A stretch of DNA of 49,601 nucleotides, from assembly GCA_018005585.1 (NCBI GenBank), contig JAGMZX010000014.1, forward strand, positions 1 to 49,601, read 5' to 3'. The stretch's first letter is position 1, and every line of letters starts with the position of its first letter. The position numbers and the translations under genes are program-made. The notes beneath the pieces were generated by a model. The model was not told the DNA's origin, did no database searches, and saw only the letters and a program-made list of their open reading frames with translations. Shown here in pieces: positions 23,143 through 35,195 of the stretch. Origin of the DNA: Candidatus Hydrogenedentota bacterium. Lineage in GTDB: Bacteria; Hydrogenedentota; Hydrogenedentia; Hydrogenedentales; JAGMZX01.

Positions 23143-26100
23143 ATGGGTGAGGAAGTGCAGCAGGAAACGCTTGTGGGCGTATTGCGCGGGCGCGCCGCGC
23201 TGACGCCGGATCGCGCCGCCTTCACGTTCTTGCGGGACGGCGAAGACGATGCCGTCACGTGGGATTATGCGTCGCTTGATGTGCGCGCGCGCGCCGTGGC
23301 GGCTGCGCTTAGGGCGCGCACGGCGCCGCGCGACCGGGCCATGCTGCTGTATCCCGCGGGACTCGAATTCATCGCCGCGTTTTTCGGCTGCCTGTATGCA
23401 GGGGTGATTGCCGTGCCCGCGTCGGCGCTGTGGGGCCGCCGCGGCCGCGGGCGGCTGGAGAGCATGATTGCGGACGCGCAGCCGTCGGTGCTGTTGACGG
23501 ATGCGGCGAACTGCGAACCGCTGCGCGTGTCGCTCACCGGTGTCTTTGACGCCACGGATAGACTCCTCGCGACAGACATCCTGCCGGGCGCGGTGACCTT
23601 CACGCCGCCGGAAATCAGCCCCGGCGCGACCGCGTTTCTGCAGTACACGTCCGGGTCAACCTCCCAGCCTCGCGGCGTGATGGTGACGCACGGCAACGCG
23701 GTCCACAACTGCCGGTTTATGCAGGAGCGGCTCCGCCATGCCGCCGACAGTGTCGTCGTGAGCTGGCTGCCGCATTTTCACGACATGGGGCTGGTGGCGG
23801 GGATTGTCAAACCGGTTTTTCTGGGCTGTCGCGGCGTTCTGATGCCGCCGGAGCATTTCGTGCAACGGCCCGCGCGCTGGCTGCGCGCGATCTCGGCGTA
23901 TCGCGGCACTTTCAGCGTCGCGCCGAATTTCGCCTACGATCTATGCGTTGACCGCGTGTCGGAAACGGACCGCGAGGGGCTCTGCCTCTCGTCCTGGCGT
24001 AATGCGTGCAATGGCGCGGAACCGGTGCGCGCGCAGACGCTGCGGCGGTTTACAGAAGCGTTTGCGCCCTGCGGATTTCGACCGGAGGCGCTGTCGCCGT
24101 GTTACGGACTTGCGGAGGCGACGCTCGCCGTTACGCTCACGCCGCCGGACCGGCCGCCGGCCGTGTGCGCAGTGGACGCGGCGGGCGGCCCGCGCGAGCG
24201 CGCCGGCTGCGGGGCGCCGTCCGCGGACACGGAGGTCCTGGTCGTGGACCCCGAGACGTTTCGGCCGGTCGCGCCGGGGGGCACAGGCGAGGTCTGGGTG
24301 TCGGGCCCGGGCGTGGCGCGGGGATACTGGGGCCGGCCGCTGGAAAGCGCGGAGGCATTTGCGGCGCGGCTCGCGGACGGCCGGGGCCCTTATCTGCGGA
24401 CGGGCGACCTTGGCGCATGCATCGCGGGGGAGTTGGTCATTCTGGGACGGCTGAAGGACGTGGTGATCATCCACGGTTACAACCATCATCCGCAGGACAT
24501 CGAGGCGACGGTCGAGGCGGCGCACGGAGTCTTGCGCCGGGGCGGGTGCGCGGCCTTCGGCATCGACGTGGACGGCGAGGAACGGCTGGCGGTTGCATGC
24601 GAAGTCGAGCGCGGCCATGAATCCGGTTTCAACGCGGACGAATTGGCGGCGCAGGTCTGCCGCGCCATCGCGGCCAACCACGAACTCGAGGTCCATGCGA
24701 TCGCGTTTGTGCGCGCGGGCGCGATTCCTAAGACGACCAGCGGAAAGGTGCGGCGGCACGCTTGCCGCACCGCGTTTCTGGATGCCTCTCTGAGCTGCCT
24801 GGCCCGGTGGCGGCGTCCGGCGGCGGGCGCGTGTGTGCAGGCCGCACCGTCCGGAAACGCGCCAGACTTCCCGGCCATCCGCGAGTTTCTGCTGCGGCTC
24901 GTGGCGGGGCGTACGGGCCTTTCTGGGAAGGTGTTGACCGGAGAGGAACCGTTTTCGGGCTTGGGGCTGAGTTCGCTGGCCACGGTGCAGCTGGCGGGCG
25001 AATTGGAGCGATTCCTCGGACGGGCGCTTGCCCCGACGATCGCGTACGTGCATTCTACCATCAACGCACTGGCCCGGGCGCTGTCGGGAGGCGCGAGCGG
25101 GACCGGATACGGCGCGCGGGCGCGCCCGCGCGGCGAACCGCTGGCTATTGTCGGCATGGCGTGCCGTTTCCCGGGTGCGGACTCGCTGGACGCCTTCTGG
25201 GAACTGCTGTACAACGGCGTGGACGCGATTTCGGAGACGCCGCGCGACCGGTGGGACAATGACCGTTTGTACGACCCAAATCCGGGGACGGCGGGCAAGA
25301 CGAACACGCGCTGGGGCGGTTTTTTGAAGGATATCGACCAGTTCGACGCGCAGTTCTTCGACGTTTCGCCGCGCGAAGCCGCGCGCATGGACCCGCAGCA
25401 GCGCCTGCTGCTCGAAATCTCCTGGCACGCGCTGGAACACGCGGGCATTCCGCCGGCGGCGCTGTCCGGCTCGCGGACGGGCGTCTTCATCGGCATAGGC
25501 AATATTGACTACATACAGGTGCAGTTGACGGCGGGTTGTCCGAACGACGCGTATGTGGCCTCGGGAAACGCCACGTCGATTGCAGCCAACCGGCTCTCCT
25601 ACTTCTACAATCTGCAGGGGCCCAGCGTGGCCGTCGACACGGCGTGTTCGGCATCGCTCACGTCGGTGCACCACGCCTGCGCGAGCCTGCGCGCAGGCGA
25701 ATGCGACTTGGCGTTGGCGGGGGGGGTCAACCTGCTGCTCAGCCCCGTGGGCACCGTGTCGCTTTCACAGGCGCGCCTGATGTCGTCCAGCGGGCGCTGC
25801 AAAGCCTTCGATGCGTCGGCGGACGGCTACGTGCGCGGCGAGGGCTGCGGCATCGTGGTGTTGAAACGGCTTTCCGACACGATCGCGCACGGCGACCGCG
25901 TGCTCGCCGTCATTCGCGGCACGGCGATCAACCACGATGGGCGGACCAATGGCCTCACGGCCCCAAACGGCCTGGCGCAGGAAGCCGTGATTCGCGCCGC
26001 GCTCGAGGACGCGCGGGTTGCGCCCGAGGCCGTGCAGTATCTCGAAGCGCACGGCACCGGCACGCCTGTCGGCGACCCGATCGAATTTGAAGCCGTCAAG

Positions 26101-33800: not shown

Positions 33801-35195
33801 CGTGTGCCGGCGTACATGATTCCAGCTCGATTCGTGGCGCTCGATACGTTGCCGGTCACCGTGAGCGGGAAGATCGACCAGCAGGTAATGCGCGCCGCGG
33901 CCCGGCCGCTTCCGGAGGAACAGACACTCGGCGCATTGCCTGACGAGACGGAAGAACGCCTGTCTCGGGTCTGGCGCGAGGTGCTTCGCCGCGAACACGT
34001 ATCCGCAAGCGAGAACTTCTTCGAGGCCGGGGGGCATTCGTTGCTCATCTTCCTGCTCCTCGACGGCATTCAGAAGGCGTTTGGGGTGACACTACCCGTT
34101 TCCGCCGTGTTCGAGCACCCGACGCTGCCGGCGCTCGCCGCGCGGGTACGCGAGGCCTTGACCGGTGACCGCGCCGCGCCTGCAGGGGATGCGGCATACG
34201 CAGACACGATCATCCCGCTGCGCACGGGCGGCGCGCGGCCGCCGCTCTTTTTCGCCGCGCCGGCGAGCGGGCTGGTCTATCCCTATTACAACCTTACGCT
34301 GGTCCTCGGACCAGACCAGCCCGTGTTCGGGCTGCAGGACCCGCGCCTCGCCCGGCCGTGTCCCGGCATTCGCGGCGTGGGAGCCTTGGCGGCTCATCAT
34401 GTGGCGGCGGTCCGCGCTGTCCAGCCCAATGGCCCTTACTATCTTGCCGGCTGGTCCTATGGCGGGCTTGTGGTGTACGAAGCTGCGCGGCAACTGGCCA
34501 TGGCGGGCGAAACCGTCGCGCTGCTCGCCATCTTCGATTGCCCCGCGCCGCGGACGGCGCGTCAGCGCGGTTCGCGCTGGCGGCGTGTGCTGACCCGTTC
34601 CTGGCGGGTGCTGCCTGCCGCCGTACGCCTGGGCTGGTGGATCGTTCCCTTTGCCCGCGACGGGCTATACCTGATCGCGGCGGCGGTGCGGCGCGAAGTC
34701 GCGGCCCGGTACGAGCGCGGCACTACCCGCCGTTATGTGCGCTGGTTTGTCGCGGACAGGTACCATCGCGTCATGCGCCGGCACGCCGGGGTAGCCCGCG
34801 CCCTTGACCGCAACCAGCAACTGGCGCTCATCGACATGCCCGCCATACGGCGGATGTTCCTCACTTTTGGCCTCAACCTGCGGGAACACCGCCGGTATCG
34901 CGCGCAACCGTATCCGGGTGTCGTCACGTTTTTCCGTGCTACGAAGGGCATCAGCCCGGCCGGCCGCAGCTCGCGGACCGGAGACTGGGAGCGCTACGCG
35001 CAAGGCGGCGTACAGGTCGTTTCGGTTGAGGGCAGCCATACGAGCATCTTCATTCCGCCCGACGTCTTCCGGCTTGCGGAACAGTTCCGCGTCTGCCTTG
35101 TTGAGGCGCAAGAACGCGCCTTTGCCACCCGCGAACGCCCCGTGGCGGTCGCCGGGCCGGGCGACGTATCGCAGGCATCCGGTGTTTCAAAATGA
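30891..35195 (+). CDS. One-module NRPS: TubC-like docking, C, A, PCP, thioesterase
   Basis: A 1434-residue synthetase. Residues 1-55 resemble the TubC N-terminal docking domain (LCLRAPQGAMTDAVRAAARE). C domain about 60-490 with H191-H192 and D196-G197 (HHIVSDGW). A domain about 520-1010 (YTSGSTGTPKG at 664-674, NAYGPTE near 796, LYRTGD, VSGKID); by-eye alignment to GrsA gives pocket DASTLAAVCK, closest to Tyr/Phe codes. PCP with S1050 in GGHSL. Type I thioesterase with S1189 (GWSYGG), D1216 and H1383 (EGSHTSIF). It should join the PKS acyl chain to one aromatic amino acid and release it by hydrolysis. No epimerase or methyltransferase domain. The C domain's acyl-donor preference cannot be read without a phylogeny. 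Confidence 0.92.
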   Translation: MTPREALAALLDHNAQVWSDGGELCLRAPQGAMTDAVRAAAREVKAELARMIGPGRKYAPASHSQQRLWFLEALEPGSGAYTMHASYVLEGDFGLERAREAVARVSRRHEALRTQFERVENILAQVIVAEAPPPVIFHDFSELADEIAEEDARRAAVALAQEPFDLAQAPLLRVLVCRLAAKRHVLAFIMHHIVSDGWSARLLTRDFLACCEAARGGTEPALPPLPVQFADAVCRRRAALADELDADLAYWRGKLCGPLPVVELPGDRPRPAAQSFRGGREARVLPEALRAALQQMARREDATLYTVLLAAFHVLLYRYSGARDIVIGSPVAGRTEPDVEHAIGFFANTLALRTPVAGEQSFRAYLGQVRETVLDAQSHQQMPFDKLVETLQPARSLAHSPVFQVVFALQNVPRREFEMSDLRITKFPFETGRTRFDLSLTIGERARGFVATVEYSRDLFDGERMARLLEHYEHLLQGIADAPDTPIAALPILSPVELRNVLVAWNETAASYPERLTLDAMIKAQSERTPGAVAAQEERDSVTYAGLEARAEALAERLRGLGAGPGKCAALLLPRGIGIVAAVYGVLKSGAAFVPIDPDAPPARIAFSLRDCAAVALVTTRALQDRAEAPACPVIVIEDVAGEATCGCRAECDVTPSDAAYVVYTSGSTGTPKGVIVPHRGAVNLAVWQGRYYDLQPGDRVLQFASPAFDAFVSELTMALCTGAALVVPERETILDPAALARFLADQRITHATFPPTMLRLLPEVALPDLKALLSAGETCDPALAARWAARAPFYNAYGPTECSVCASVYRCTGAESQLVPIGAPVANVRLYVLDTHGCPSPVGVPGELYIGGVSLADGYLNRPDLTAAAFVEMTLPLAGRQRLYRTGDMVRRRADGLLEYLGRRDSQVKLRGFRIELGEIEAALSEHAGVRACAAHLRAVESGGQELVACYVPADGPLEPAAVHAHMRARVPAYMIPARFVALDTLPVTVSGKIDQQVMRAAARPLPEEQTLGALPDETEERLSRVWREVLRREHVSASENFFEAGGHSLLIFLLLDGIQKAFGVTLPVSAVFEHPTLPALAARVREALTGDRAAPAGDAAYADTIIPLRTGGARPPLFFAAPASGLVYPYYNLTLVLGPDQPVFGLQDPRLARPCPGIRGVGALAAHHVAAVRAVQPNGPYYLAGWSYGGLVVYEAARQLAMAGETVALLAIFDCPAPRTARQRGSRWRRVLTRSWRVLPAAVRLGWWIVPFARDGLYLIAAAVRREVAARYERGTTRRYVRWFVADRYHRVMRRHAGVARALDRNQQLALIDMPAIRRMFLTFGLNLREHRRYRAQPYPGVVTFFRATKGISPAGRSSRTGDWERYAQGGVQVVSVEGSHTSIFIPPDVFRLAEQFRVCLVEAQERAFATRERPVAVAGPGDVSQASGVSK

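Follow-up and report, generated by a model that had tools for sequence, protein, structure and literature searches.

The 49,601-nt stretch studied here (hereafter the window; contig JAGMZX010000014.1 of the Candidatus Hydrogenedentota bacterium assembly GCA_018005585.1) carries two overlapping genes, in which a polyketide synthase (PKS) protein ending in a sulfotransferase (ST) domain is followed by a complete nonribosomal peptide synthetase (NRPS) module. To our knowledge, the sole role known for PKS-embedded STs is to prepare a chain for decarboxylative release as an alkene. Here the ST would act as an in-line beta-O-sulfation domain, with the NRPS linking the chain to an amino acid by an amide bond and the product leaving as an N-(3-sulfooxyacyl) amino acid, a reading that we consider probable, if only just. 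The domains and the mode of docking are familiar, while the domain order and the predicted role of the ST are new.

The first protein (2583 aa, 23143..30894, plus strand, as for its domains and the second protein) consists, according to its open reading frame (ORF), Pfam domains and motifs, of fatty acyl-AMP ligase (FAAL), acyl carrier protein (ACP), ketosynthase (KS), acyltransferase (AT), ketoreductase (KR), a second ACP and ST. FAAL (approximately 23191..24798; Pfam AMP-binding, aa 17-396, and AMP-dom_DIP2-like) obtains high scores from fatty-acid-AMP ligase models. It is followed by ACP1 (approximately 24880..25092; PP-binding, serine motif LGLSSL), KS (25135..26256; Pfam aa 665-1038, DTACSASL/EAHGTGT/KTNIGHLE) and AT (26821..27771; Pfam aa 1227-1543), whose motifs GHSIGE and HAFH we take to be of the malonyl type. 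KR (28798..29379; Pfam aa 1886-2079, GGFGGLG, catalytic Ser/Tyr/Asn) is presumably B-type, having the Asp of the LDD region, and precedes ACP2 (29671..29868; carrier aa 2177-2242, serine motif LGMDSI) and the ST (29980..30852; PF13469 Sulfotransfer_3, aa 2287-2499, 3.8e-30).

The second protein (1434 aa, 30891..35195), whose ORF overlaps the first by four bases (ATGA), combines in its ORF and Pfam domains an N-terminal TubC-type beta-hairpin docking domain (30891..31046; PF18563 TubC_N, aa 7-48, 2.1e-6), condensation (C) domain (31062..32384; Pfam aa 58-498, HHIVSDG), adenylation (A) domain (32457..33872; Pfam AMP-binding, aa 523-861, motifs A3/A7/A8/A10), peptidyl carrier protein (PCP; 33957..34148; carrier aa 1023-1086, GGHSL) and a type I thioesterase (TE) of the PF00975 type (34242..35090, end approximate; Pfam aa 1118-1229, GWSYGG and His). 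All examined active-site motifs are intact in both proteins, including both ACP serines and the KS Cys/His/His. The layout is thereby confirmed: both the Ols-like order of the first protein and the C-A-PCP-TE content of the overlapping gene after a terminal ST, as proposed in the original prediction, are borne out, and the docking pair and the recurrence in other genomes described below are additions to it. The C domain, whose possible loss of function had been a concern there, has an intact HHIVSDG motif and is not degenerate. Its best matches by sequence and fold are Txo1, Txo2 and TycC (all LCL), with starter and DCL domains scoring lower, so that LCL-like is the closest assignment, made from these best matches rather than from a full reference tree of C types. 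The source is a metagenome-assembled genome (MAG) in 288 contigs, which might suggest an assembly artefact or a decayed cluster. However, the ORFs of 2583 and 1434 codons are uninterrupted and start/stop coupled, and the same layout in independent MAGs of other genera and families already refutes this barely credible explanation.

Both sequence and predicted structure indicate that the window ST is a true CurM/Ols-type sulfotransferase. In the PDB search it is 45% identical to the CurM ST (4gbm, 1.9e-80) and 44% identical to the Synechococcus OLS ST (4gox, 2.4e-74), while the next matches, tyrosylprotein sulfotransferases, reach only about 1e-6. The AlphaFold model (mean pLDDT 86) has target-normalised TM scores of 0.94-0.95 to 4GBM/4GOX, other structures being far weaker; such identity and TM scores establish the family rather than activity in this context. 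The motifs PRSGSTLL, SPPELH, DKSPSY and RHP are present, and of the 74 near-invariant columns of the ST-(Ols)TE group the window ST keeps 60. Thirty-two of the 74 are kept throughout the 13 ST-to-C domains that were compared, including positions of PRSGST, PPEL, DKSP and RHP; the roles of catalytic residues were judged by conservation alone. In the tree of 66 STs, the window ST groups with four further ST-to-C domains of Hydrogenedentota in a 100/100 clade that lies within the PKS-ST family (the trees hold no distant outgroup STs, the distance to other STs being taken from the PDB search). Thus, the tree placement suggested in the original prediction puts this ST among the PKS-associated ones, and the 3'-phosphoadenosine 5'-phosphosulfate (PAPS) residues, whose loss outside this clade had been considered, are kept together with the active-site columns.

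The ST protein and the NRPS protein are predicted to be joined by a known type of docking pair, formed by a C-terminal short linear motif (SLiM; EEERL, 30877..30891) and the TubC-type N-terminus. In SLiM/beta-hairpin pairs the tail is shorter than 15 residues, its last five residues bind, and the partner is an alpha-beta-beta-alpha-alpha domain with charged residues in beta2 (PMC9113145). The TubC_N match of the NRPS N-terminus scores 28.2 bits, slightly above the Pfam cut-off of 26 bits. Its predicted secondary structure (helices 3-12, 35-43 and 45-52, strands 16-20 and 23-27) is alpha-beta-beta-alpha-alpha, with the charged E23 and the invariant R27 in beta2, and the tail of the ST protein is disordered in the AlphaFold prediction (pLDDT <50). 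The ending is EEERL, VEERL, EESRL or EEGRL in all eight separate ST-terminal Hydrogenedentota relatives, each having a TubC_N-like N-terminus on the neighboring protein. Among 655 ORFs of at least 250 aa in the surveyed loci, the ending E(E/D)xRL occurs in ST-terminal proteins only, and Pseudomonadota ST proteins followed by a TE protein do not have it. The TubC, Kj12 and Bamb_5915 pairs likewise combine a short C-terminal tail with an alpha-beta-beta-alpha-alpha domain before C, but the reviewed SLiMs are located on oxidases, heterocyclization, PCP, ACP and one epimerization domain, whereas here the SLiM is on a sulfotransferase (PMC9113145).

The genome search suggested in the original prediction shows that the layout is recurrent. 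The survey took in every ST match in the phylum's 68 genomes, together with 56 loci obtained by scanning 84,980 species; flanking domains were read by domain-by-domain BLASTP, with a Pfam check on selected proteins. STs of this type were found in 12 of the 68 Hydrogenedentota genomes, comprising 15 modules. Ten of these, including the window, are followed by C and five by a PF00975-type TE, and none of the 15 by the PF00561-type TE of Ols/CurM. The ten ST-to-C loci come from nine genomes, six genera and three families (the window; L078, L079 and L081 of one genus; L080 and L084, both in genome G050; L088/L089; L090; L091). In L084, ACP-ST-C-A-PCP-TE is contained in a single fused protein, thus the order of ST and C is fixed covalently there, while in the other eight relatives ST is the C-terminal domain of its protein. 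Outside the phylum nearly all loci of the 84,980-species scan are ST-OlsTE, mostly cyanobacterial, and none is ST-C (L077 is ambiguous). The TE can therefore be said to be replaced by an NRPS module in comparison with Ols, but not by a single swap: as ten of the 15 modules feed C, five a PF00975-type TE and none an Ols-type TE, the Hydrogenedentota as a lineage put the ST to another use.

Several of the surveyed loci have features of their own. The five ST-TE modules (L082, L083, L085, L086, L087) carry a TE of the PF00975 type, not the Ols-type PF00561. L088 and L089 (genomes G011 and G010) lack both AT and KR: their FAAL precedes ACP-KS-ACP-ST and then docking domain-C-A, so either AT and KR must act in trans or the substrate must differ. 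No tailoring gene common to the ST-to-C clusters was found when looked for; near that of L081, a GNAT/FeeM-like N-acyltransferase region is fused to a class V aminotransferase region (5418-7292). The Ols loci L076 and L073/L074 occur in bins named Gracilibacteria, Crocinitomicaceae and Phycisphaerae; near-identity is seen between L076 and a cyanobacterial Ols ST and between L073 and L074, these loci being probable mis-binned contigs.

The domain order, the intact motifs, the ST family, the docking pair, the recurrence, the fusion and the absent Ols-type TE, as read from sequence, are consistent with the following route, in which we infer each catalytic step, the direction of transfer, the retention of sulfate and the identity of the amino acid. 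FAAL would load a fatty acid onto ACP1, KS and AT would extend it by one malonyl unit, and reduction by KR would give a 3-hydroxyacyl-ACP2, probably 3R. The ST would move a sulfuryl group from PAPS to the 3-hydroxyl with the chain still on ACP2, the EEERL tail would bind the docking domain of the NRPS, the C domain would join the 3-sulfooxyacyl chain to the residue chosen by the A domain, whose code is Tyr-like, and release of the N-(3-sulfooxyacyl) amino acid would fall to the type I TE. The ST would thus be an in-line tailoring domain, not a prelude to decarboxylative alkene release. Amide formation before release, as the original prediction had it, is the best reading, because the ST is terminal, a full C-A-PCP-TE comes next, a docking pair is present and one relative is a covalent fusion; the Ols-type decarboxylative elimination would be unavailable, since the carboxyl of the 3-sulfooxy acid would become an amide. 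A 1-alkene would still be made if a trans-acting thioesterase released the chain early for decarboxylation, and the upstream protein alone has every Ols domain except the TE. But no Hydrogenedentota module of the 15 has an Ols-type TE after its ST, and a complete NRPS with a docking pair, fused in one case, comes next, making this outcome very improbable.

Several further points weigh against the N-(3-sulfooxyacyl) amino acid as the product. The C domains after ST form no clade of their own in the C-domain comparison and so give no indication of a donor site adapted to sulfo-acyl chains. The A-domain code DASTLAAVC(K) we take to be of the Tyr type, which the literature search did not confirm, neither this code nor its variants finding a match there. 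No PF01648 phosphopantetheinyl transferase (PPTase) was found in the MAG of the window (97% complete), nor is there a PF01648 match in a few other Hydrogenedentota, such as four of genus g18. The congener does have one, as do 54 of the phylum's 68 genomes, four of which carry PPTase genes directly beside ST-TE clusters, and the absence here is probably a gap in the bin. Finally, the window ST departs at 14 of the 74 near-invariant columns, compared to 1-9 for its Hydrogenedentota relatives, and its activity may possibly be reduced. The changes are mostly conservative, and none of them falls within PRSGST, PPELH, DKSP or RHP. These departures are what would speak for a bypassed or weakly active ST and a plain N-(3-hydroxyacyl) amino acid as the product, which we consider unlikely, as the PAPS-loop and active-site residues are kept, also in the closest relatives (the five-locus 100/100 clade), and the ST is retained with its docking tail across many genomes.

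The other question is whether the sulfate stays on the product. It could be an in-line leaving group, lost as 3-O-sulfo after or during amide formation to give an alpha,beta-unsaturated acyl amide or a beta-lactam, the latter if the amide nitrogen attacked C3; with Ser/Thr modules, dehydroamino acids or beta-lactams would result. Making a leaving group is the purpose of the ST in the characterised CurM/Ols pathways (PMC3903477, PMC5577590), and the STs are placed after carriers expected to hold beta-hydroxy residues. Moreover, the A codes downstream of ST differ between loci, and the acceptor may therefore be less important than the conserved ST-amide element. On the other hand, the Pfam domains of both window proteins include no dehydratase (DH), enoyl-CoA hydratase (ECH), lyase or Ols-type TE domain capable of removing sulfate, nor was a specialised C domain found. 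A DH domain would be a simpler route to an enoyl amide. The beta-lactam-forming C domain of NocB has an extra His before HHxxxDG, whereas the window C domain reads MHHIVSDG without it, and the TE nucleophile motif GWSYGG is of the ordinary Ser type, not the Cys of the monobactam-forming SulM TE. We therefore regard loss of the sulfate as possible but rather improbable, and its retention on the product remains our first choice over elimination or displacement.

In an additional sample of about 400 genomes each from Acidobacteriota (phylum of G068) and Pseudomonadota (phylum of G070), the ST was found in three and five genomes, respectively. Here ST-C layouts do occur, as KS-KR-ACP-ST-C-A-PCP (L110) and FAAL-ACP-KS-ACP-ST-C (L111), and in two genomes ST directly follows an NRPS carrier: C-A-PCP-ST-C-A... 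in L112/L113 (G456) and C-A-PCP-ST-C-A-PCP-TE in L117 (4168-12663, G522). The A domain before ST reads DFWSVGMVH in G456, identical to a published Thr code; the one in G522, DVWSISLVD, is close to the Ser code DVWHLSLVD (PMC12283262). Since Thr/Ser-like codes precede the PCP-linked STs, the in-line ST is everywhere expected to follow a carrier holding a beta-hydroxy substrate, and the L117 and L112/L113 STs, which would act on beta-hydroxy amino acids, may lead to O-sulfo or dehydro residues. Together with stand-alone ACP-ST proteins, these STs make up a branch separate from that of the acyl STs (100/99), and they read PELE where acyl STs read PELH. The ST-to-C STs are not monophyletic: the starred branches of the tree force at least two label changes, and the tree as drawn needs eight. 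A wider proposal, which we put forward as distinctly speculative, is that CurM-type STs between carrier and C serve PKS and NRPS lines of at least three phyla as a general, hitherto undescribed means of activation, in which the sulfate put on the beta-hydroxyl of a 3-hydroxyacyl chain, or of Ser/Thr on a PCP, is displaced or eliminated after amide formation to give enamides, dehydroamino acids or beta-lactams. The presence of an ST alone does not predict an alkene, as docking or fusion connects this domain to further elongation in several phyla. A class of sulfated or sulfate-activated lipopeptides is predicted from an uncultured phylum, a cis-acting sulfation domain may be offered for engineering, and the role of sulfate as decoration or leaving group becomes directly testable.

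In the papers searched, PKS-embedded STs appear solely ahead of a TE-catalysed decarboxylation (PMC3903477, PMC5577590, PMC5408267, PMC11837247), and ST presence is used as a marker of terminal-alkene pathways (PMC3903477). Ols of Synechococcus PCC 7002 has the same FAAL-ACP-KS-AT-KR-ACP-ST order as the window protein (PMC3903477), but with a PF00561-type decarboxylating TE in cis after ST, while the window protein ends in its ST and a docking tail, and the PF00975 TE closes the NRPS. CurM of curacin A shares the KS-AT-KR-ACP-ST logic, but has no FAAL and ends in ST-TE with loss of CO2 and sulfate, whereas the window line continues chain elongation. HlaB of haliamide from Haliangium (PMC5577590, PMC6274090) is, like the window system, a hybrid of NRPS and PKS with a CurM-like ST, though its NRPS stands before the ST and the terminal ST-TE gives an alkene. 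The nearest use of a sulfotransferase in NRPS is trans N-sulfonation in sulfazecin, where a carrier-bound intermediate is likewise sulfonated (PMC11298585). SulN acts in trans on 2,3-diaminopropionate and the SulM TE nucleophile is Cys, while the window has a cis ST, expected to sulfonate oxygen, and a TE with Ser; the ST in cis and the GWSYGG motif do not fit a monobactam synthetase of the sulfazecin type, with its Cys TE, trans ST and last module activating diaminopropionate. For in-line STs or sulfated acyl-amino acids, the literature search, which included few subscription papers, turned up no contexts beyond those of Ols, CurM, haliamide, laucysteinamide (proposed) and SulN. Within this literature the original statement that no characterised pathway has this layout holds, an earlier report being possible.

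The PKS-NRPS cluster is accessory, as it is lacking in the congener G001 and only 12 of the 68 genomes have such an ST. In the window, recO, lepA, lepB and a hemN-like gene lie downstream of the NRPS gene, with an SMP-30 family gene and a reverse-oriented NuoE/F-like gene upstream of the PKS gene; G001 keeps recO-lepA-lepB, while the cluster and adjoining upstream genes are absent at that place. The GC content is 68-69% across the cluster versus about 61-67% in the flanks; a horizontal-transfer island was considered and rejected, GC3 giving no strong foreign signal. The closest named relatives are MAGs of Candidatus Hydrogenedentota, in agreement with an origin in that phylum. The genome encodes an APS kinase for PAPS supply. 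A SulP-type sulfate permease with STAS and cNMP-binding domains and a sulfatase (5425-7725 and 9426-11348) are located 12-18 kb upstream of the cluster.

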